DNA of 64,000 nucleotides from Lachnospiraceae bacterium (lineage in GTDB: Bacteria > Bacillota > Clostridia > Lachnospirales > Lachnospiraceae). Both the position numbers and the translations under genes were made by a program. The notes below the pieces were generated by a model, which worked only from the letters and a program-made list of their open reading frames with translations, was not told the DNA's origin and did no database searches. The first letter of the stretch is position 1, and each line of letters starts with the position of its first letter. The DNA lies in NCBI GenBank assembly GCA_023664345.1, contig JAMPFQ010000017.1, positions 27,260-91,259 of the forward strand, written 5' to 3'. Shown piece after piece: positions 1-8,122 of this stretch.

Positions 1-96
1 GTCCCGGCGCTCCGTCCTCATCACGTACATGACCTTCCCCGTGCCCCTTGCGGGCCCCCTTATGCTCGCTGCCACGAATATGTCCACCTGCCTCAC
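1..96 (-). CDS. Unrecognised protein, 5' end only (runs off the window)
   Basis: A GTG codon at 96 opens a frame that stays open for 32 codons to the window edge and begins MRQVDIFVAASIRGPA. A GGGAGGG ribosome binding site lies 6 bases upstream, 15 bases after the stop of the preceding gene, so this reads as the fifth gene of the leftward operon that starts at 1,091. I do not firmly recognise it. The opening resembles small RNase H-like proteins carried by clostridial mobile elements, but this is weak recall and only 32 residues are visible. Confidence 0.5.
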   Translation of the reverse strand, partial: MRQVDIFVAASIRGPARGTGKVMYVMRTERRD

Positions 97-111
97 CCGG
101 ATCCCTCCCTT

Positions 112-462
112 TCATGGGCATGCTCCCCGCTGGCCGGAGGCCTCCTGCTGCCATGCAGGGTTCCCCTCCCTCTCCATCCGCCTGCACGGGACCGCGCCGG
201 GCATGGCATGGGCGCCGTGGTGCCCCACCTCCCCGGGGATCCGGTAGACCATGCAGTCATACCCCAGCCGGTTCCAGACGATGCACTTGTCCATGACCCT
301 GTTGACGCTCCTCTTGTCGAAGAGCCCGTCCACGTACGCGCCATCATCCGTGGCCGTCCCGAAGAGCCTCTGCCGCAGGCCCTCCGGCGCCTCCAGGAAC
401 ACCGCCAGCATGCAGGCCTGGTCATACAGGTACTTGGCGCGGAACAGCTCCCCCTCCGTCAT
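112..462 (-). CDS. Small hypothetical protein of the mobile element
   Basis: A 116-residue protein of unknown function. The start at 462 is chosen because it makes a 4-base ATGA overlap with the stop of the preceding gene (459-701), the usual mark of translational coupling; longer upstream starts would run deep into that gene. The first 75 residues are well-formed soluble sequence with aromatic and cysteine residues (MTEGELFRAKYLYDQAC, then a DKCIVWNRLGYDCMVYRI stretch). The last 35 are arginine, proline and glycine rich and may be disordered. The local GC content is clearly higher than in the genes at 1,200-4,300. Confidence 0.55.
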   Translation of the reverse strand: MTEGELFRAKYLYDQACMLAVFLEAPEGLRQRLFGTATDDGAYVDGLFDKRSVNRVMDKCIVWNRLGYDCMVYRIPGEVGHHGAHAMPGAVPCRRMEREGNPAWQQEASGQRGACP

Positions 463-701
463 CCATCCCATCGCTGCTCCTTTCCCAGCCGCCTTATGTA
501 CTCCGCCAGCTGCCTCCTGCCCCGCTCCCTGCTGCGCCACCTCTCCGCGAGGCCGTCGCAGAAGGAGCAGAGGGCCAGCAGGGGCATGAAGATCCCCATG
601 AACGCCGCCACCAGCGCCAGCGGCCCGCAGTCCGCCAGCCCGGGCATGCTCCTGGCGGCCAGGACCGCTCCCATGGCGGATATGATGATGTTCTTGTACA
701 T
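459..701 (-). CDS. Small membrane protein of the mobile element
   Basis: An 80-residue protein with a hydrophobic N-terminal half (about residues 5-45, containing ISAMGAVLAA and LALVAAFMGIFMPLLAL) that could form one or two membrane segments, followed by a strongly basic tail (RWRSRERGRRQLAEYIRRL). A GGGAGGGG ribosome binding site lies just upstream. It overlaps the next gene by 4 bases. No family recognised; small membrane proteins of this shape are common in phage and conjugative element operons. Confidence 0.55.
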   Translation of the reverse strand: MYKNIIISAMGAVLAARSMPGLADCGPLALVAAFMGIFMPLLALCSFCDGLAERWRSRERGRRQLAEYIRRLGKEQRWDG

Positions 702-720
702 CCGTTCCCCTCCCTTCCGG

Positions 721-924
721 CTAATGTATGTACCGCAGGACGTCCCGCATCAGCGCGATTCCGCTGTCGCCGCCCACGGGCACCTTTTTTATCCCGCCCT
801 CATAATGGATGGTGACGTATTCCCCGTCCAGATCCATCCCGGTGATGGACATCCCTGCCCTGGTCATCCTCACCGCCTCGTACAGCTTTCCCACCAGCTG
901 CTCCCTTGTTGCCATACCGTTCAT
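721..924 (-). CDS. Small hypothetical protein of the mobile element
   Basis: A 67-residue soluble protein (MNGMATREQLVGKLYEAVR..). The ATG at 924 is preferred to the ATG at 915 because an AGGAGGG site lies 9 bases upstream of it, right after the stop of the preceding small gene at 939. The sequence has a helical first half and a beta-like second half (GEYVTIHYEGGIKKVPV). Function unknown; it is the second gene of the leftward operon. Confidence 0.55.
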   Translation of the reverse strand: MNGMATREQLVGKLYEAVRMTRAGMSITGMDLDGEYVTIHYEGGIKKVPVGGDSGIALMRDVLRYIH

Positions 925-938
925 CTGGCATGTCCCTC

Positions 939-1091
939 CTATCCAGTCTTGGTCCTGCAGGCAGCATGCTGCCCGAACCCCTCTTTTGATTCCCTTTTCC
1001 TGATCACATCCAGGCAGGCCTTGGTATATCTCTGCTGATACCCTTCTGTTAATACCACTGCCACCTTAATCTCTTTCTTATCTTCTTTCAC
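939..1091 (-). CDS. Very small protein, first gene of the leftward operon
   Basis: A 50-residue frame with a GTG start at 1,091 and a TAG stop, beginning MKEDKKEIKVAVVLTEGYQQ and continuing with a basic helix (RYTKACLDVIRKRE). A GGGAG site sits 10 bases upstream of the GTG. Its stop overlaps the AGGAGGG binding site of the next gene, which supports real, coupled translation. The pattern of a short beta strand, then a GYxxR(Y/F)TxAC motif, resembles tiny proteins I associate with clostridial phage or ICE operons. Function unknown. Confidence 0.5.
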   Translation of the reverse strand: MKEDKKEIKVAVVLTEGYQQRYTKACLDVIRKRESKEGFGQHAACRTKTG

Positions 1092-1131
1092 TTATAGCTT
1101 GCTCCCATCACAGATACATTTTCTCTTTTTG

Positions 1132-1160
1132 TTGCCCTTGTCCATCCCCTCCCGTATACT
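1132..1160 (+). promoter_or_regulatory. Promoter of the small cargo gene, copy 1 of a duplicated leader
   Basis: TTGCCC at 1,132-1,137 and TATACT at 1,155-1,160 are 17 bases apart. The promoter and the following 50-base leader, including an imperfect hairpin (GTAC-A-GGCTG, loop TTGCCG, CAGCC-AA-GTAC, about 1,165-1,191), recur at 1,576-1,663 in front of the Abi-alpha gene at exactly the same spacing to the start codon. Confidence 0.7.
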
Positions 1161-1211
1161 GTTTGTACAGGCTGTTGCCGCAGCCAAGTACGAAAGAAAG
1201 GAGAATCTCGT

Positions 1212-1539
1212 ATGGATATAGTTCTCACAAAGGATGCTAATTTGCATCATGTACAAAGAGTACCTTAAAAACCGGAAATCTGGTATGTCAAAGCCTGATG
1301 CCAAAATGTTCGGATCCTCTCATGCCATCCATGAGGATTTGTTGCCCAAATGGTCATTCGAAGATGTTGATGAAACCTGTCGTGAACTCAGCCGCTCTGA
1401 ATTGCTTCACTGTGACTGGGGCGATAATATTGCCTGTCGTGTCACGTTGTCCGATACAGGTATCATTTACATGGAAAACCGCTTCAAAAACGGGCTGGAA
1501 GAAATCACAGACTTCATTTCCAAGCTCATTCTTACATGA
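1212..1539 (+). CDS. Small cargo protein with a probable N-terminal frameshift
   Basis: The main frame runs from 1,234 or 1,249 to 1,539 (about 96-101 residues, MYKEYLKNRKSGMSKPDAK...) and looks like a small winged-helix-type protein of the YjcQ-like sort; the family call is tentative. The best ribosome binding site (AAGGAG, 8 bases before an ATG at 1,212) and the duplicated leader both point to 1,212 as the ancestral start. That frame, reading MDIVLTKDANLHHV, stops at 1,268, while the frame needed for the rest of the protein is one base out. Joining the two near 1,234-1,240 would give a sensible N-terminus. So the gene is either inactivated by a small indel, or re-initiates weakly at 1,249. 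It sits in cargo next to the Abi-alpha gene. Confidence 0.55.
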
Positions 1540-1583
1540 CATCCGGTGTTATCTGCATCCTCTCGTACCGCCACATCTTTTTG

Positions 1584-1612
1584 TTGCCTTTGTCCATCTC
1601 ATCCCATATACT
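1584..1612 (+). promoter_or_regulatory. Promoter of the Abi-alpha gene, copy 2 of the duplicated leader
   Basis: TTGCCT at 1,584-1,589 and TATACT at 1,607-1,612 are 17 bases apart. The surrounding 88 bases match copy 1 at roughly 76 positions by eye, including the leader hairpin core GGCTG-TTGCCG-CAGCC, and the start codon falls at the same distance. The conserved hairpin suggests shared control of the two cargo genes at the RNA or DNA level. Confidence 0.7.
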
Positions 1613-1663
1613 GTTGGTACAGGCTGTTGCCGCAGCCGAGTACGAAAGAAAAGAGATAAACAT

Positions 1664-2452
1664 ATGAGCAAAAACAACACTATCAACACTCTCATCAATG
1701 CAGATCTACCACCATCAGTAGACAATGCTCTCAAAAACCTAACTGATAAACCCACTCTTACTGCTGGAAACATCATTTCCGATCTAGTAGACCTGACATT
1801 TGGACCACTTTCATACTGGGCAGAGAAAGCACGCATTAAAAGGGCATACAAGTTGGAACAATTCCGTGAGAAACTTTTAACCTCTGCCGACAAGATCCCA
1901 CCTGAAAAACTGATCGAACCCTCCCTGCGAATAATCGCCCAGGCCTTGGAGGATGCAAGGTACTGTATATCCGAGGAAAAACTTCAGGATATGTTTGTCT
2001 CACTGATCAGCCATTCAATGAATGCAGATTTTTCAAACTTCATCCATCCGTCCTTTTCAGAGATAATCAAACAAATGTCCATGTTGGATGCACGGATTAT
2101 AGCCCTTTTCAAAAATGAGCAGTTACCCGGGCTGCCTGTTTGCCAATACTGTATAGCACTGCCTGGCACCACAAGCGCTCCAGCCATTCCAGAACATATT
2201 TTCCTGGAGATACCGGAGGGAGTCGTTACTCCCAATTCTGTCTCCCTGATATCTCTGTCGCGACTTGGCTTGCTTACGATCTCCTACTTTGAATTCCTGC
2301 ATGACGAAACACTGTACAAGAAATTTTCCACACATCCTTTTTATACAGACTTACAAAGAGAATGTCCTGTTGGAACAGTCTCCATAAGAAAAGGGGTCGT
2401 CAGGCTTACTTCCCTGGGCAGGTCATTTATCAGGGTGTGCGTCCCTGATTGA
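1664..2452 (+). CDS. Abi-alpha (DUF4393) family protein, putative abortive-infection factor
   Basis: A 262-residue protein. The ATG at 1,664 follows an AAAGAGATAAACAT leader at the same place as the start in the duplicated copy; the frame is open further upstream but without a binding site. The middle region carries the family pattern: IPPEKLIEPSLRIIAQALEDARY, then EEKLQDMFVSLISHSMN, then a VHPSF-like FIHPSFSEIIKQMS, which I recognise from Abi-alpha/DUF4393 proteins. Family members were named for phage abortive infection in lactococci; the mechanism is not known to me. It lies among the regulatory genes of a mobile element, where superinfection defence genes are often carried. Its 3' end overlaps the convergent small gene by 30 bases. 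Confidence 0.75.
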   Translation: MSKNNTINTLINADLPPSVDNALKNLTDKPTLTAGNIISDLVDLTFGPLSYWAEKARIKRAYKLEQFREKLLTSADKIPPEKLIEPSLRIIAQALEDARYCISEEKLQDMFVSLISHSMNADFSNFIHPSFSEIIKQMSMLDARIIALFKNEQLPGLPVCQYCIALPGTTSAPAIPEHIFLEIPEGVVTPNSVSLISLSRLGLLTISYFEFLHDETLYKKFSTHPFYTDLQRECPVGTVSIRKGVVRLTSLGRSFIRVCVPD

Positions 2453-2605
2453 TTCCTTTACTATTCTGATCATCTCGTCCCCAATACGGTCCATCGTTTT
2501 GTCCACATATATCTTGAACGCACAGCAGCCTAAGAATGTTACAAAGGCTGCTGTCATTATTGATGTTCCGGCGGAAACAAGCGCAGCCACTATGACCGTT
2601 TTCAC
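2423..2605 (-). CDS. Small membrane protein of the mobile element
   Basis: A 60-residue protein starting with GTG at 2,605, 9-10 bases after a strong AGGAGG. Residues 3-35 form a single hydrophobic segment (VIVAALVSAGTSIMTAAFVTFLGCC), followed by a charged tail (DKTMDRIGDEMIRIVKES). It follows the Cro-like gene in the same direction and overlaps the convergent Abi-alpha gene by 30 bases. Function unknown; a membrane-acting accessory or lysis/exclusion role is possible but not shown. Confidence 0.6.
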   Translation of the reverse strand: MKTVIVAALVSAGTSIMTAAFVTFLGCCAFKIYVDKTMDRIGDEMIRIVKESIRDAHPDK

Positions 2606-2649
2606 TCTTGCTCTCCTCCTACGCTGTTTTTCTCTAGTCCGCTAAAAAT

Positions 2650-2877
2650 TCATCCAGTGTTATCTGCATCCTCTTCAAACAAAACTCGTATGGGTATGTC
2701 CGGGAAAACCGCCCTTTGAATATTGAATGCTTCGTCTAAATTTAAACGGGTACGCCTAGATAATTTTCTGGAAAGAGTGTCACGGTTCATTCCAGTACAC
2801 TTTGCAATATCGATAATTGATAAATTCCTCTTTGCCATCTCTATCCTTACTTTTTCGTACATCACACAACTGCGCAT
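2650..2877 (-). CDS. Cro-like helix-turn-helix regulator
   Basis: A 75-residue DNA-binding protein. The ATG at 2,877 is chosen because a GGAGGTG site sits 7 bases upstream. The HTH is visible as RNLSIIDIAKCTGMNRDTLSRKLSRR, with the typical SxxxIAxxxGxxxxTLSRxL spacing. It is divergent from a CI-like repressor, with three related operators between them, the layout of a temperate switch. Its promoter is TTGACA (2,946-2,941), 17 bases, TTTAAT (2,923-2,918), and the middle operator lies across it. It is likely the first gene of the leftward lytic or transfer operon. The last codons (EDADNTG) are repeated as a short ectopic copy at 1,540-1,563. Confidence 0.75.
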   Translation of the reverse strand: MRSCVMYEKVRIEMAKRNLSIIDIAKCTGMNRDTLSRKLSRRTRLNLDEAFNIQRAVFPDIPIRVLFEEDADNTG

Positions 2878-2889
2878 TTTTTTCACCTC

Positions 2890-2993
2890 CAATCACTTAT
2901 TGAGTGATTACAGGTATATTAAATCACCTGTTGCGCGATTTGTCAACATAATCCTTAAAAAAATCTTGCAATGCGTGATTTTTAATGTATAAT
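2890..2993. promoter_or_regulatory. Divergent switch region with three operators and two promoters
   Basis: Three inverted repeats share half-sites close to AAATCAC / GTGATTT: 2,890-2,910 (AATCACTTATTGAGTGATT at its core), 2,921-2,941, and 2,961-2,981; the last two are 21 bases long with centres 40 bases apart. The leftward promoter is TTGACA/TTTAAT with a 17-base spacer (2,946-2,918), covered by the middle operator. The rightward promoter is TTGCAA (2,966-2,971) and TATAAT (2,988-2,993) with a 16-base spacer, its -35 covered by the third operator. This is consistent with CI-type autoregulation and repression of the Cro-like gene. Confidence 0.8.
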
Positions 2994-3019
2994 AGGGAAT
3001 ACAGAGAGGAGAATATTAG

Positions 3020-3769
3020 ATGGATGTATATAATGTATTATCAGATATAATGACATACGAAGGACTTTCTATAGCAAATATAGCAAAAAAATGTAATCTC
3101 CCAGATTCTACTGTTAGAGGAATAATGACCAGAAAACAAAAAACAGTTTCTTTGGATGTTGCATATAAGCTTTCAGACGGTTTGGGTGTATCTCTTGAAC
3201 GACTAAACGGAATGGAAGAATCAGAAGATAATAATGCAGCAAATTATTATAAAAAACATGCGACTACCAAAGAATTTGAAAATATCATCAAAAAATACCG
3301 TGACCTTGACCCCCATGGGAAGAAAATGGTGGACTTTACGCTGAACGAGGAATGGGAACGCTCGACCGCCGCACGCCAGCCGGAGGCGAATCCCTCCATG
3401 CACGGCGCCCCTACCCGCCTGATCAATTACTATTACCGCCTGGCATCCGCAGGGACCGGCCAGGTCATCTTTGACACGCCGCCCACCAAGCGGATCGAGA
3501 TACCGAACATCCCCGAATACAGGAAGGCGGATTATGCCATAGGCGTGAACGGGAACAGCATGGAGCCGGCTTTCCATGACGGGGACATGCTGCTGATAGA
3601 AATGACTGATGAGATCTCCCGCGGCGAGGTCGGCATCTTCCTGGTGGACAATGAAAGCTATGTGAAAAAGCTTGGGGACAGGGAACTGATCTCGCTTAAT
3701 CCGGAGTGCGATAACATCCCCCTGACCGGGGATCCCAGGTGCATGGGGAGGGTCATTGGAAAATTGTGA
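3020..3769 (+). CDS. CI/LexA-like repressor (XRE HTH plus S24 peptidase)
   Basis: A 249-residue repressor. Residues 10-60 form an XRE HTH (LSIANIAKKCNLPDSTVRGIM). Residues 140-249 form a LexA/UmuD-like self-cleavage domain: cleavage site Ala144-Gly145 (ASAGTG), nucleophile Ser180 (GNSMEP), general base Lys216 (SYVKKL). Such repressors hold a prophage or ICE silent and are inactivated by RecA-stimulated self-cleavage after DNA damage; that behaviour is family knowledge. A GAGGAG site precedes the ATG, and the promoter is overlapped by the third operator, so it probably regulates itself. The first ~270 bases are AT-rich and the rest GC-rich, a mosaic boundary near 3,300 between the two domains. 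Confidence 0.9.
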   Translation: MDVYNVLSDIMTYEGLSIANIAKKCNLPDSTVRGIMTRKQKTVSLDVAYKLSDGLGVSLERLNGMEESEDNNAANYYKKHATTKEFENIIKKYRDLDPHGKKMVDFTLNEEWERSTAARQPEANPSMHGAPTRLINYYYRLASAGTGQVIFDTPPTKRIEIPNIPEYRKADYAIGVNGNSMEPAFHDGDMLLIEMTDEISRGEVGIFLVDNESYVKKLGDRELISLNPECDNIPLTGDPRCMGRVIGKL

Positions 3770-3810
3770 TCAAGCTGCCATGAGCGATAAAGATGAAAGG
3801 GGGACTATCA

Positions 3811-4050
3811 TTGGAGATCATTTATTCCAAACAGGCGATAAAGTTTATAAAAAAACAAGACCGCAATACCCAGGCACGCATTACCACCGCCATTTCAAAA
3901 CTTCCATTTTCAGGAGACATACAAAAAATGCAGGGTTCTTCCGGTTACCGCCTCCGCATTGGGGATTTCCGTGTACTGTTTGATATAAATGGCATAACAA
4001 TTGATATCATTGAGATTGGAAACCGTGGCCAGATTTATAAAGGAGTGTAA
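3811..4050 (+). CDS. RelE/ParE-superfamily toxin
   Basis: A 79-residue protein when started at the TTG at 3,811, which gives the usual family opening (MEIIYSKQAIKFIKKQD) and has AAAGGGGG 6 bases upstream; the ATG at 3,793 lacks a good site. The body has the expected features: an N-terminal basic helical hairpin, then GYRLRIGDFRVLFDI and a final beta strand IDIIEIGNRGQIYK, matching RelE-type mRNA interferases in size and layout. The partner gene follows 5 bases later. Toxin-before-partner is the less usual order but known in RelE/HigB-type pairs. It probably stabilises the element. Confidence 0.8.
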   Translation: MEIIYSKQAIKFIKKQDRNTQARITTAISKLPFSGDIQKMQGSSGYRLRIGDFRVLFDINGITIDIIEIGNRGQIYKGV

Positions 4051-4055
4051 GATAT

Positions 4056-4304
4056 ATGTCAAATGTAAAAGAACGTATCATAGGCGCTGTTACTGTCATG
4101 GATGAAAAGGACGCTGAAAAAATATGGAAAATCATCCTTGCCAACTTTGCCCTTATGGATGTTGAGGAAGTACAGCCGGATGAAAACGAGCAACGGATAC
4201 TGGACGCATATGCATCCGGCGATCCTGATTACCAGCCTCACATGTCCCAGGAGGCCCTGCTCAAGGAACTGGGCCTGACAGCTGATCCAGATCAAAGATC
4301 ATAG
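4056..4304 (+). CDS. Putative antitoxin paired with the RelE-type toxin
   Basis: An 82-residue acidic protein (MSNVKERIIGAVTVMDEKDAEKIW...). It starts 5 bases after the toxin stop with an AAGGAG site inside the toxin's 3' end, so the two are coupled. The C-terminal half (DENEQRILDAYASGDPDYQPHMSQ) is the type of acidic, flexible tail that wraps a toxin. I recognise the general pattern from clostridial gene pairs next to RelE genes but cannot name a family. The stop codon lies within a TCATAGG-AG-CCTATGA palindrome at 4,299-4,314. Confidence 0.65.
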   Translation: MSNVKERIIGAVTVMDEKDAEKIWKIILANFALMDVEEVQPDENEQRILDAYASGDPDYQPHMSQEALLKELGLTADPDQRS

Positions 4305-4604
4305 GAGCCTATGAGATGAGCAGGGAGATTATAAAAGGATTGATCCAATATATACACGGATGATAATATATCTTTCCGTACCGTTATAGGGACGGTGGCA
4401 CAGCGATCATACCGTATCCGTTGCGACGTCGCAACACAGCCCTGCAACATAAATAAAAACCGCCTCCGGCGCCAACCAGAAGCGGATTTTATGGAACAGC
4501 ACCGGGAAGCCCCGATACAATACCAAGCACAACAGAATTGTATCATCTTCCCGGGAAAAATACAAGCCCCGGGCATTTTTATGCCCGTAAAAAGGAGAAA
4601 AACC
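4305..4604 (+). promoter_or_regulatory. Palindrome-rich leader of the recombinase gene
   Basis: No gene is seen in these 300 bases. A possible promoter is TTGATC (4,340-4,345) with GATAAT (4,362-4,367), spacer 16. Then come: a perfect 16-base palindrome GTTGCGACGTCGCAAC (4,420-4,435); a two-part inverted repeat in which CCGGGAAG (4,502-4,509) and GATACAAT (4,514-4,521) pair with ATTGTATC (4,537-4,544) and CTTCCCGG (4,547-4,554); and a 7-base hairpin CGGGCAT-TTTT-ATGCCCG (4,570-4,587) ending 3 bases before the AAAGGAG site. These could bind a regulator or fold to limit recombinase translation. Confidence 0.6.
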
Positions 4605-6173
4605 ATGGTTTTTGCAAATTATGGCAGGAAAAGTGTTTTTTCAGACAAATCAGATTCCGTGGACAACCAGCTGCGCATGAGCCGCGAATATGCAGACAGC
4701 CGTTTCCCCGGACGTGTTGACAGATTCCTCCACTATTTTGATGAGGACTTTACCGGGGCAAACACAAACAGGCCCGGCCTCCAGAAACTCCTGGCGGATA
4801 TCCAGGCCGGACTGATCGATGTGCTGATCGTCTATCAGTTGGACAGGCTCTCAAGGGACGTCCAGGATTTTGCCAACATTTACTCCATGCTGGAGGAGCA
4901 CAATGTTTCTTTTGTGTCCGTAAAAGAGCAGATCGACACGACCACTCCCATTGGCAAGGCCATGATGTATGTCACCGTGGTTTTTGCCCAGATGGAACGG
5001 GAAACGATCGCCCAGCGCGTCACTGACAATATGATCGGATTGGCCAAAAAAGGGTATTGGGTGGGAGGCAATCCCCCTGTTGGCTTTGAGCGTCAAAGGA
5101 TAACCATGGACGGCAAAAAGCATGTTGTCCTGGTGCAAGATCCAGAAGGGGCTGCATATGTGACCGAAATTTTTAGGATCTTTCTGAATCACAATTTTTC
5201 CCTTCAGGGGATGGAAACATATTTTAAAAACCAGGGGATCAAGACCCGGAACGGAAAATTTTTTAGCACCACACAGCTGCACAAGATCCTCACCATGCCT
5301 TATTGTGTTGAAGGCACTGCGGCTGTTTATGATTATTATGCTGCAAAGGGGTGCATCATGGATCCGGATAGTCCCAGGGATAAATGGGACGGTACCAAGG
5401 GCGTCATGGTCTATGGACGTACCACGGAAAAGAACAAAAAGCATCAGCTCCAGCCTCCTGGACAATGGAGGGTATGCTTGGGCCTGCATGACCCTTTTAT
5501 ACCAGCGGATGATTGGCTTGCGGTGCAAAAGCGTTTTAGCGCTAATGTGTTTGACAAGGCAATGAAATATGATGCGCCCCTCTTAAAGGGTGTCCTCCGG
5601 TGCAAATGCGGATCTATCATGCGCGTGTCTTATAAAAAGAAAGTGGAGGGTGTGAGCTCATGGTATTATTGTTTAAAACGCATGCGACAGGGAGCAGAAG
5701 CCTGTCCAGACTCCCATCATATAAAAACCGACACACTTGACAAAAAAGTCATGGAGATATTCCGTTCCATTGATTCGGATCCTGGATCGATCAATGCTTA
5801 CGTGACGCAAAAAGAAGAAAAAGCAGAGGACATTTTCGCACTAAAAAAACTAATCGGGAATGCCGAAAAGAAGATCGAACGCCTCGCATCATCCTTGGCA
5901 TTGTCTCAAAACTCGGCTGCCGCCAAATATATCATCACAGAGATGGAAAAACTGGATGCAGAACTACAGGACCTGCACCATAGGGAACTCAATATCGCTG
6001 CCATAGATAAGGAGAAACATGAACGCGAAAAAAATTTTCAAAAACGTGTAGAGGAAATACAAGAACTTGTGGAGCGCTTTGATCAATTTACAGCATCCGA
6101 ACGCAATGAAATCGTGCGTGCGGTAGTGTCTGAATGTATATGGGACGGACAGACTCTTACTTTGCGGATTTGA
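4605..6173 (+). CDS. Large serine recombinase (integrase of the element)
   Basis: A 522-residue site-specific recombinase. The start at 4,605 follows AAAGGAG; the frame is open upstream but without support. Residues 1-150 are the resolvase catalytic domain: Ser10 in ANYGRKS as the nucleophile and the signature DVLIVYQLDRLSRD. A recombinase domain follows (GYWVGGNPPVGFERQR), then a zinc ribbon starting near residue 330 (LRCKCGS ... YYC ... C), a coiled-coil region (about 400-470) and a family-typical C-terminal end (IVRAVVSECIWDGQTL). It would catalyse integration and excision between attP and attB. It lies at the very end of the element, 15-25 bases from the junction with cpaF, as usual for this enzyme class. 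Confidence 0.92.
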   Translation: MVFANYGRKSVFSDKSDSVDNQLRMSREYADSRFPGRVDRFLHYFDEDFTGANTNRPGLQKLLADIQAGLIDVLIVYQLDRLSRDVQDFANIYSMLEEHNVSFVSVKEQIDTTTPIGKAMMYVTVVFAQMERETIAQRVTDNMIGLAKKGYWVGGNPPVGFERQRITMDGKKHVVLVQDPEGAAYVTEIFRIFLNHNFSLQGMETYFKNQGIKTRNGKFFSTTQLHKILTMPYCVEGTAAVYDYYAAKGCIMDPDSPRDKWDGTKGVMVYGRTTEKNKKHQLQPPGQWRVCLGLHDPFIPADDWLAVQKRFSANVFDKAMKYDAPLLKGVLRCKCGSIMRVSYKKKVEGVSSWYYCLKRMRQGAEACPDSHHIKTDTLDKKVMEIFRSIDSDPGSINAYVTQKEEKAEDIFALKKLIGNAEKKIERLASSLALSQNSAAAKYIITEMEKLDAELQDLHHRELNIAAIDKEKHEREKNFQKRVEEIQELVERFDQFTASERNEIVRAVVSECIWDGQTLTLRI

Positions 6174-7042
6174 TTTCCCTTTTTTATAATGCGCCGTTCC
6201 GGCCTCATGCGCAGGGACGACTTGATCAAATCCCGCATGGAGATGCCGCCCTCACCCGAAGAATTGGCGTTGCGTGTCTCCAGCCTTACCAGGTTGGGAA
6301 TATGCCTGATCTGCAGTTCTGCGGAATCCTCTATGGTAATAACGCGTTCCTCCTGTGGGATATAATTGGAAAGCGCATTCAAAAAGGTAGTCTTCCCGGA
6401 ACCGGTTCCGCCACTGATAAAAATATTGTATTTCGCCTTCACCAGCTTCTGCAAAAAGACTGCCGCCTCCGGTGTAATGGAACCATAGTTTATCAGCTTC
6501 TGAATCGTCATTCCCTCCTCGGGGAACCTCCTGATCGTGACAATGGGGCCATTTAGGGCGATCGGATCCAGCACTACATTCACACGGGATCCGTCCGCCA
6601 GACGGGTATCTACAATGGGGTTACTCTCGGTGACGGAGCGTCCCATATCCTGCACAAACTTTGTGATGATTTGCCGCAGACGATCCTGGCTTTCGAATTT
6701 TTCCGGGATACGCTCCAGCTTCCCGGCACGTTCCACAAATATGGTGTCATATCCGTTTATCATGACCTCGGTAATGCTTTTATCCGCGATGATCTTTCCC
6801 AAAATACCCAGTCCTCTGATGGATTCAAAGACATTATTGACCAGACTCTTTCTGGTACGAAAGGACAGAGAGGAATAATACGCTGCCACATCGGGCTCCG
6901 TTCCTTGCGTCTGCCTGATGCGCAGTTCCATCATTGCCTCTGCCCTCTCCCTCAGTTCGGTATCCGATAACTCCGAGTAAGAGGGATCCCGGCATATCAT
7001 CTCGCGGATTTTGACCGTTTCTTCTGTAAAATAATCTCTCAT
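6083..7042 (-). CDS. cpaF: CpaF/TadA-type secretion ATPase, truncated by the mobile element
   Basis: The N-terminal ~285 residues of a type II/IV secretion ATPase that drives Tad/Flp pilus assembly. The ATG at 7,042 follows GGAG; an ATG at 7,054 is the alternative. Family features seen: DKSITEVMINGYDTIFVERAGKLERI, Walker A (ISGGTGSGKTTF, near residue 210-220), the Asp box (EERVITIEDSAEL), and SLRMRPER. The gene is then cut by the integrated element: the arginine finger/Walker B region (usually RIIVGEVRG) and the rest of the C-terminal domain are missing, replaced by about 35 non-native residues. The protein as encoded should not hydrolyse ATP. The missing part probably lies at the other end of the element, left of this window. 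Confidence 0.88.
   Translation of the reverse strand: MRDYFTEETVKIREMICRDPSYSELSDTELRERAEAMMELRIRQTQGTEPDVAAYYSSLSFRTRKSLVNNVFESIRGLGILGKIIADKSITEVMINGYDTIFVERAGKLERIPEKFESQDRLRQIITKFVQDMGRSVTESNPIVDTRLADGSRVNVVLDPIALNGPIVTIRRFPEEGMTIQKLINYGSITPEAAVFLQKLVKAKYNIFISGGTGSGKTTFLNALSNYIPQEERVITIEDSAELQIRHIPNLVRLETRNANSSGEGGISMRDLIKSSLRMRPERRIIKKGNQIRKVRVCPSHIHSDTTARTISLRSDAVN
6180..6205. other. Element-chromosome junction (attachment site) inside cpaF
   Basis: Reading leftward, the cpaF-type frame is family-like through SSLRMRPER (codon ending at 6,194) and becomes unrelated soon after, near 6,185-6,195, where it continues antisense through the end of the recombinase gene. Family proteins read on as RIIVGEVRG at this point. 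The crossover of the serine recombinase is therefore placed here. The exact dinucleotide cannot be fixed without the other end or an empty site. Confidence 0.7.
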
Positions 7043-7072
7043 GCCAATCTCCATTTAGCTTTCCGCAACATC

Positions 7073-8122
7073 TTAATGACTGACGAGCGCCTCCACAAAG
7101 CTGACTCCGGCATTTCCCGCCAACATGGTGATCAGCTGAGCAGAGTCAGGATTCTGTATCCCCCCTACTCTGCCCGCCAATGGAATCGGACTGCCAGTGT
7201 CCATTCCCCGGCCATTATCAAAATTCAGCACCCGCAGCATTTTCCGGCTATACGCGTTCATGACATGAGCCTGTGCCGTAAAACATTGCATTTTATGTAT
7301 CGCTATTGCATCCGGCTTTTCCACCAGAATGATCTTTTCCACCTGTTCAAAAATACTCAATGCCCTGGCATCCAGCGCCACCCCCATATCCACCACAATA
7401 TATTCGAAAAGCCCCGATCTGCTAATCTCTGTAAGCAGTTCGCCGATATCCTGGGCCGTCATTGCATAAATGTCGTTGGGACTGTCAAAATGCTTCAGAT
7501 AATACAGATTATCACTCTTGGTCTGCAGCAGGCTTTGCAGCTTCATGGGAAAATTAATTCCGGAACCGAGAGAGCCGACCAGTTCACTGAGTCCCTTCCC
7601 ATCGCTCTGAGGTAAATAGCAGTCCTCCGAGGCAATGTCTTCCAAATTGATATAAAAGGTTTTATATCCCCGCATTGCAAGCTTCGAAGCCGCTACCAAC
7701 GCAAGCGTTGTCTTACCACATCCGCCTATGGGAGAATAGAAAGCCACCGACATTCCCCATTGTCTGCCCATAAACTCTCCCACATCCTGACAGACCTCGG
7801 AGTACATTTCCAGAATCTGTTTGTAGATATTGCTGATGCGCTGATATTTATTGACCTTATGGCAGTTTCCACAGCCTGCGGGAACTGCCTTGGCATCATC
7901 CAGGAGCATCACTGCCAGCATATCTTTATTCAAGGCAGTCTGACCATCATATAAGTCCGAGTCAAACAGAATAATATCAAATTTCCTGGAAGTCAATGCT
8001 GTCTCCAGACTGTCTGCGTCCGTATACACGGACAATACCAGATCCTTATACTCTTCCAACACACTGACCAATCGATCCAGGTATTCTTTATCGTTATCTG
8101 CAACAGCTATTCTGACCTGCAT
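7073..8122 (-). CDS. cpaE: CpaE/TadZ-like pilus assembly ATPase
   Basis: A 349-residue protein with a receiver-like N-terminal domain (residues 1-80, IAVADNDKEYLDRL then DIILFDSDLYDG) and a ParA/MinD-type ATPase domain with a deviant Walker A at about 130-139 (SPIGGCGKTT). CpaE/TadZ proteins localise Tad pilus machinery at the membrane. The ATG has a GGGGAGG site upstream. The cpaF gene follows after 30 bases, so this is the start of a tad operon now cut by the element. Its promoter is seen at 8,191-8,163. Confidence 0.85.
   Translation of the reverse strand: MQVRIAVADNDKEYLDRLVSVLEEYKDLVLSVYTDADSLETALTSRKFDIILFDSDLYDGQTALNKDMLAVMLLDDAKAVPAGCGNCHKVNKYQRISNIYKQILEMYSEVCQDVGEFMGRQWGMSVAFYSPIGGCGKTTLALVAASKLAMRGYKTFYINLEDIASEDCYLPQSDGKGLSELVGSLGSGINFPMKLQSLLQTKSDNLYYLKHFDSPNDIYAMTAQDIGELLTEISRSGLFEYIVVDMGVALDARALSIFEQVEKIILVEKPDAIAIHKMQCFTAQAHVMNAYSRKMLRVLNFDNGRGMDTGSPIPLAGRVGGIQNPDSAQLITMLAGNAGVSFVEALVSH

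Follow-up and report, generated by a model that had tools for sequence, protein, structure and literature searches.

The window, a 64,000-nucleotide stretch of a Lachnospiraceae genome (G000; 3.88 Mb, 47 contigs), corresponds to positions 27260-91259 of contig C8. The host was treated as a member of the Lachnospiraceae and is probably a gut commensal. At the left end of the window, phage genes meet a truncated copy of cpaF (tadA), the gene for the ATPase of a Tad pilus. The features around this junction are as follows.

1-6197: integrase-end part of a prophage, whose remainder lies on C8:1-27259 and on contig C25
2650-2892, minus strand: Cro-like regulator (Pfam PF13443)
3020-3769, plus strand: CI/LexA-like phage repressor with a Peptidase_S24 domain (Pfam PF00717, PF01381)
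3793-4304, plus strand: ParE-type toxin gene (PF05016 for 3793-4050) and a small downstream ORF, between repressor and integrase
4605-6173, plus strand: large serine integrase of 522 aa (Pfam Resolvase, Recombinase and Zn_ribbon_recom; PHROG 95 integrase, E 1.4e-101)
6083-6197, minus strand: chimeric, phage-encoded tail of the truncated cpaF frame, with its stop at 6083, antisense to the integrase
6175-6188: phage att arm TTCCCTTTTTTATA, repeated in inverted form at the other junction
6198-6202: att core TCCGG (CCGGA in the cpaF sense), matching the other junction (L041 6018-6022)
6198-6199: central dinucleotide GA (TC on the plus strand), from comparison of the junctions
6198-7054, minus strand: N-terminal part of cpaF/tadA, with an ATG at 7054 or 7042 (Pfam PF00437; match to the orthologue in the relative G082)
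7073-8122, minus strand: host cpaE/tadZ, intact, upstream of cpaF (Pfam PF21194; TadZ-like)

Upstream of the window, C8 carries on one strand the genes for the terminase large subunit, portal, head protease, capsid, tape measure and tail, and the other phage genes encode a Gp37-like tail protein, a holin, an endolysin, the S24 repressor and the integrase. Head, tail, packaging, lysis and repressor genes are all present, as in a siphophage, and the combination of Resolvase, Recombinase and zinc-ribbon domains in an integrase adjoining the att site identifies a large serine integrase. A mobile element inside cpaF had been proposed in a previous sequence-only reading of this DNA, and this was confirmed: positions 1-6197 are the integrase-side end of a temperate siphophage that has integrated into cpaF, with the integrase beside the cut N-terminal part of the gene. 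The S24-type repressor suggests that induction would be SOS-linked. The ORF at 4056-4304, a possible antitoxin to the ParE-type toxin, had no Pfam match. The prophage measures at least 35.8 kb over C8 and C25; its middle is unassembled, and both contigs end in phage DNA. The end of C25 (C25:38308-38343) and the start of contig C18 (C18:5-39) are 92% alike over 36 bases next to phage lysis genes, which is likely a repeat common to two prophages at an assembly break. C18 itself was rejected as the missing piece of the prophage, as only these 36 bases are common and its first genes resemble, by eye, the lysis end of another prophage.

The truncated frame (6083-7054, minus strand) covers positions 6-213 of the 370 in Pfam profile PF00437 and encodes the N-terminal portion of an ATPase of the T2SSE family. 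Its codons were compared with those of the intact G082 orthologue, giving 93% amino acid identity over 281 codons; at the nucleotide level, an identity of 85% ends at position 6194. Comparison of the att sites places the host/phage boundary at the shared core TCCGG, and the last four bases that match G082, from 6194 to the core, are read as phage bases that would match by chance. The Walker A motif GGTGSGKT is kept in the frame (by eye), and the Walker B region, RIVVGEVRG, is absent from it. A protein search of the same genome located the missing C-terminal part on C25 (C25:35593-36027), where residues 279-423 are encoded with 91% identity to G082. Past this half, C25 (38,343 bases) continues into tadB (C25:34824-35588; 86% to G082) and then tadC, and in the opposite direction 2.3 kb of phage DNA with endolysin and holin genes follows. 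The other end of the element, the cpaF C-terminus and a matching att core are thus present in the same genome, where the sequence-only reading had proposed to look for them, and the C-terminus has not been lost from it. The gene order tadZ, tadA, tadB, tadC, pseudopilin-type genes is that of a Tad locus. Pfam searches matched TadZ and T2SSE, TadC scored above the T2SSF cut-off and TadB below it, the Tad match of a DUF5702 protein in the locus was below cut-off, and two small genes of the locus had no Pfam match.

Relatives do not share the truncation. In a search of 100 other genomes of the genus for cpaF orthologues, at least four relatives were found among the matches listed to have a close orthologue (82-93% identity), and the gene is uninterrupted, as had been anticipated, in G082 (frame of 436 aa; 423 aa in L026) and G093 (437 aa). 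In G037 the frame spans 428 aa, and the match contains a single TGA. In G001, cpaF continues across the site and stops 21 bases later, where its contig ends; the contig with the remaining part (G001:C248) starts with sequence that we take to be an Illumina adapter (L042 1-45), and the truncation looks like an assembly artefact. For this reason the same insertion was rejected for G001: its gene extends past the site, breaks off where the contig does, and has its remainder on a contig that opens with adapter-like sequence. A short cpaF frame in G066 was likewise rejected as an insertion; it lies at a contig edge, and cpaF continues to residue 403.

Both halves of the interrupted gene keep a low dN/dS relative to G082 (0.051 for the N part, 0.037 for the C part), and because of this no decay beyond the insertion is seen, in agreement with the earlier view that the pilus locus is broken by the element alone. 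The accompanying statement that cpaE and its promoter are retained holds for the gene, which is intact; the promoter was not established, as a promoter-like match upstream of cpaE (8191-8163, minus strand) lies in a region with six such matches against 5.0 expected, which is chance level. The split copy of the ATPase has presumably lost its function, because its two Walker motifs, A and B, fall on different polypeptides. The genome also holds a second, uninterrupted cpaF of 412 aa on contig C42, with similar DNA at the site, so that the insertion need not cost the cell all of its Tad pili, and the proposal that pilus formation depends on the state of the element was too strong for this genome. 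A terminator-like hairpin between the endolysin gene and the cpaF C half (L041 6124-6100, minus strand; a pattern match alone) makes it unlikely that tadB is driven by late transcripts of the phage.

The two junctions, read in the cpaF sense, are ATGAGGCCGGAACGGCGCATTATAAAAAAGGGAA on the N side and TTCCCTTTTTTATATTGAGACCGGAGCGCATTGTGGTGGGC on the C side, with CCGGA common to both. Joining the flanks at CCGGA gives IKSSLRMRPERIVVGEVRG, which is in frame, reads RP-E-RIVVGEVRG, and has identical letters in the uninterrupted G082 protein. The prophage thus lies within a host coding sequence with a precise, in-frame attB, and excision, as suggested before, could rebuild the gene; at the level of sequence, the reversibility of the insertion is well supported. 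The cut had been placed at SLRMRPER, but the crossover lies slightly earlier, at the GA within the codon for Glu. Between the integrase stop codon and the core lie 24 bases, in keeping with the distance of about 25 bases between integrase and cut that had been noted. Serine integrases use imperfect palindromes about a 2-bp core. The phage arms here are 14-base inverted repeats, and the reconstructed attP is symmetric about GA at 19 of 25 positions, so that a short core and an imperfectly palindromic attP characterize the site as that of a serine integrase. The core comprises CCGGA in this element and GA only in that of G363 (by eye). The exact pattern of the reconstructed attP, as expected of the excised phage form, had no match in viral_contigs.

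Relatives of the integrase were collected as 47 loci (L043-L089, with L060 being the element itself, L062 repeating L046 and L063 repeating L050): 10 from genome_contigs, 7 from viral_contigs, and 30 from a sample of 397 genomes of the family, in which 40 genomes had an integrase match at E <= 1e-60 and the 30 loci are among the matches listed. cpaF was found in the fetched flank beside the integrase at eight of the 47 loci, representing six distinct elements including the present one; it was absent from the fetched flank at the other 39, which include five in other genes, six attP-like loci, contig ends, and integrases of no more than about 30-42% identity. A seventh case, L112, was found via cpaF and has an integrase of 42% identity. 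Thus, besides the present element, six (L043, L046 (=L062), L050 (=L063), L053, L064 and L112) have an integrase 42-74% identical directly beside an identically cut cpaF. Both halves are readable in G000, G495, G363 and G497, and the GA join is in frame in all four, three of them besides the present case; in this order, the joins are RPERIVVGEVRG, RPDRIIVGEVRG, RPDRLIVGEVRG and RPDRIIVGECRG. The halves lie on one contig in G495 (C11, about 49 kb apart) and G363 (C86, about 39 kb apart). In L046 (G272/G496), L053 and L112, the N half alone was recovered, and the exact crossover is for this reason deduced; only the C half was found at the GA site in G498 and L116. In G495, G363, G272 and G497, no cpaF was found besides the split one, bar weak paralogues of at most 34% identity, so the effect on the Tad pilus should be larger there.

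G498 presents a separate arrangement. At L049 (1304-1580), an integrase arm adjoins a prepilin-peptidase-like fragment, and another contig of this genome (L108 4887-4960) carries the cpaF C half with an apparent counterpart arm of this att type; no N half of cpaF was found in G498. The arrangement may reflect two prophages, a deletion or a binning error.

The integrases that use the site are carried by otherwise different phages, as far as two compared prophages go. Those of G495 and G363 have head, tail and packaging genes of their own, and only 4 of 35 ORFs of at least 90 aa drawn from the C8 part match either element (tblastn, 1e-5): the integrase (59% and 45%), a stretch of the tape measure (33%) and two small, weak matches (34-35%). 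These two prophages have little in common with the present one beyond the integrase. In a tree of the integrases, L112 and L064 branch outside the main group and the present integrase groups with L053, and these four cpaF-site sequences lie outside five that are found in other genes, which nest inside. The simplest reading would be an ancestral cpaF target and later retargeting. The five (L044, L045, L049, L051 and L061) are close relatives of the integrase beside genes other than cpaF, because of which its specificity is not strict, and a full-length cpaF frame is present in their genomes other than G498 (G501, G499, G500 and G150). By eye, the neighbour at L045 is sugar permease-like and that at L049 prepilin peptidase-like, the latter having no Pfam match; at L044, after position 4572, the integrase relative adjoins an apparent tape-measure gene of another phage (by eye). 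In six further relatives (L048, L054-L058), the integrase is followed by an attP-like palindrome (by eye) and further DNA, and the centre of the palindrome was TC in three of the six sites in an ungapped test. Among INPHARED phages, 1109 records match, every one below 60% identity.

Insertions at other positions of cpaF, and by other kinds of element, were also found. Scanning viral_contigs with cpaF yielded nine loci from eight contigs. The GA site is occupied in L112 and L116, and the vicinity of residues 308-310 in L111, L117, L118 and L119, which have distant serine integrases (25-28%); L118 and L119 look like one phage in two samples. L114 is interrupted near Walker A (about residue 213) and L113 near residue 190. 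In 146 of 150 sampled genomes of the family, the cpaF C-part was matched (E <= 1e-15); rows are listed for 132 of these and not for 14, and counts of shortened frames are lower bounds. A shortened frame was found in at least four of the 132 (G000, G104, G105 and G141). In G104 (L135, G104:C16:40000-56000), the halves are about 14 kb apart, with the insertion at the NTGH motif, and the element encodes a relaxase, a serine recombinase, a cytosine methylase and a MutH-like protein. G105 (L125, G105:C37:1300500-1310500) has an element of about 7 kb at the ITIE motif, with a resolvase and a tyrosine integrase. The cpaF C half of G141 adjoins type I restriction genes, and its N half was not found. 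In the same genomes the control gene tex was matched in 134, none of which had a frame shortened away from contig ends; shortened tex frames in G160 and G246 were rejected, both being cut by contig ends. The comparison of 4/132 with 0/134 gives a Fisher p of 0.059, one of the four being G000, which was chosen for its split gene. A hot spot for insertion in cpaF is suggested, with an excess that is borderline and measured against one control gene.

We consider it very probable that the window holds one end of a temperate siphophage whose serine integrase targets cpaF, crosses over at GA, would leave no scar on excision, and shares its site with a clade of integrases. The large serine integrase would recognize the stretch that immediately precedes the Walker B motif in the gene for the Tad-pilus ATPase and make a single crossover at GA in the Asp/Glu codon of M-R-P-[D/E]-R-[I/L]-[I/V]-V-G-E-V-R-G. 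In the lysogen, the ATPase would be divided between Walker A and Walker B, and this copy should not power pilus assembly. Precise excision by the integrase and a putative directionality factor would rebuild an unscarred cpaF. The same site would serve related integrases on otherwise different phages, and was probably chosen for its strong conservation within a dispensable, widespread gene.

The target might instead be favoured for the effect of breaking it, as the Tad/Flp pilus would admit rival phages or DNA that could replace the prophage, in the manner supposed for prophages in comYC, comFA and comK. Several kinds of element at four positions (the GA site, about 308-310, Walker A and about 190), the elements of G104 and G105, the restriction genes beside the G141 C-part, the shortened frames in at least four of the 132 genomes listed against none for tex, and the split copy being the only cpaF, weak paralogues aside, in G495, G363, G272 and G497 are all consistent with such selection. 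In Micrococcus luteus, a link between Flp pili and transformation has been reported. The excess relative to tex is, however, borderline, with a single control gene and the present genome counted, DNA uptake by Tad pili in these bacteria is only hypothetical, and conserved DNA in a dispensable gene explains insertion at a conserved motif equally well; this explanation is held tentatively and is doubtful. Active lysogeny, in which excision without killing restores cpaF and switches the Tad pilus on and off, is improbable. The precise in-frame attB in all four paired cases, the undecayed halves, the uninterrupted orthologues in relatives and precedents in other genes, as far as the available parts of those sources describe them, agree with it, but the full-looking lytic set, including holin and endolysin, means that induction would normally kill the cell, in-frame restoration comes with any precise integrase and is no sign of regulation, and the genome has a second cpaF. 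Misjoining of cpaF and phage contigs, conceivable for a prophage over two contigs of a 47-contig assembly, is next to negligible, as the att arms and core match at both junctions and the identical junction recurs elsewhere, with G495 and G363 holding both halves on one contig.

With the cpaF-targeting siphophage as the preferred reading, wider consequences may be considered. cpaF-like genes are nearly universal in the family. If their recurrent disruption by prophages is general, finding tad genes in a gut genome would be no guarantee that the pilus works, and within one strain lysogens and cured cells could differ in piliation. It may be speculated, with the odds against it, that the Tad-motor gene is a shared battleground in gut Lachnospiraceae, where a clade of cpaF-specific integrases, passed between unlike phages, and further integrative elements at other conserved motifs repeatedly disarm the pilus, clean excision can re-arm it, and occupancy sets piliation. 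The paired att sites also yield serine integrases whose sites are inferred, a resource for building tools in Lachnospiraceae.

Comparison with known systems draws on the available parts of the published texts. Among the literature hits, viewed in part, no recurrent, precisely reversible prophage disruption of the Tad ATPase was found, and a word search of a prophage paper on the gut species Clostridium clostridioforme (PMC11318856) returned no occurrence of "pilus". Durrant 2022 (PMC10083194) likewise described serine integrases site-specific for one conserved gene, with target genes enriched in competence genes; "pilus", "secretion" and "ATPase" do not occur in its main text, and cpaF may be in its supplementary lists. 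Helper-embedded satellites (PMC10111431) also have an integrase clade with a recurrent coding-sequence target, which is formed by prophage late genes, whereas here it is a host pilus gene. In the regulatory switch of phiSa3mw in hlb (PMC6597384), a prophage likewise splits a host coding gene and product makers arise; the gene differs, and excision was studied there, whereas the present case is known from sequence alone. The prophages in comYC, comFA and comK (Croucher 2016, PMC4774983) are similar in that related integrases repeatedly split conserved pilus/competence genes in several species; the target there is competence, and here the motor ATPase of the Tad pilus in Lachnospiraceae. The finding is rated as a variant of prophage disruption of pilus/competence genes, in which the recurrence of the cpaF site among separate elements is new.
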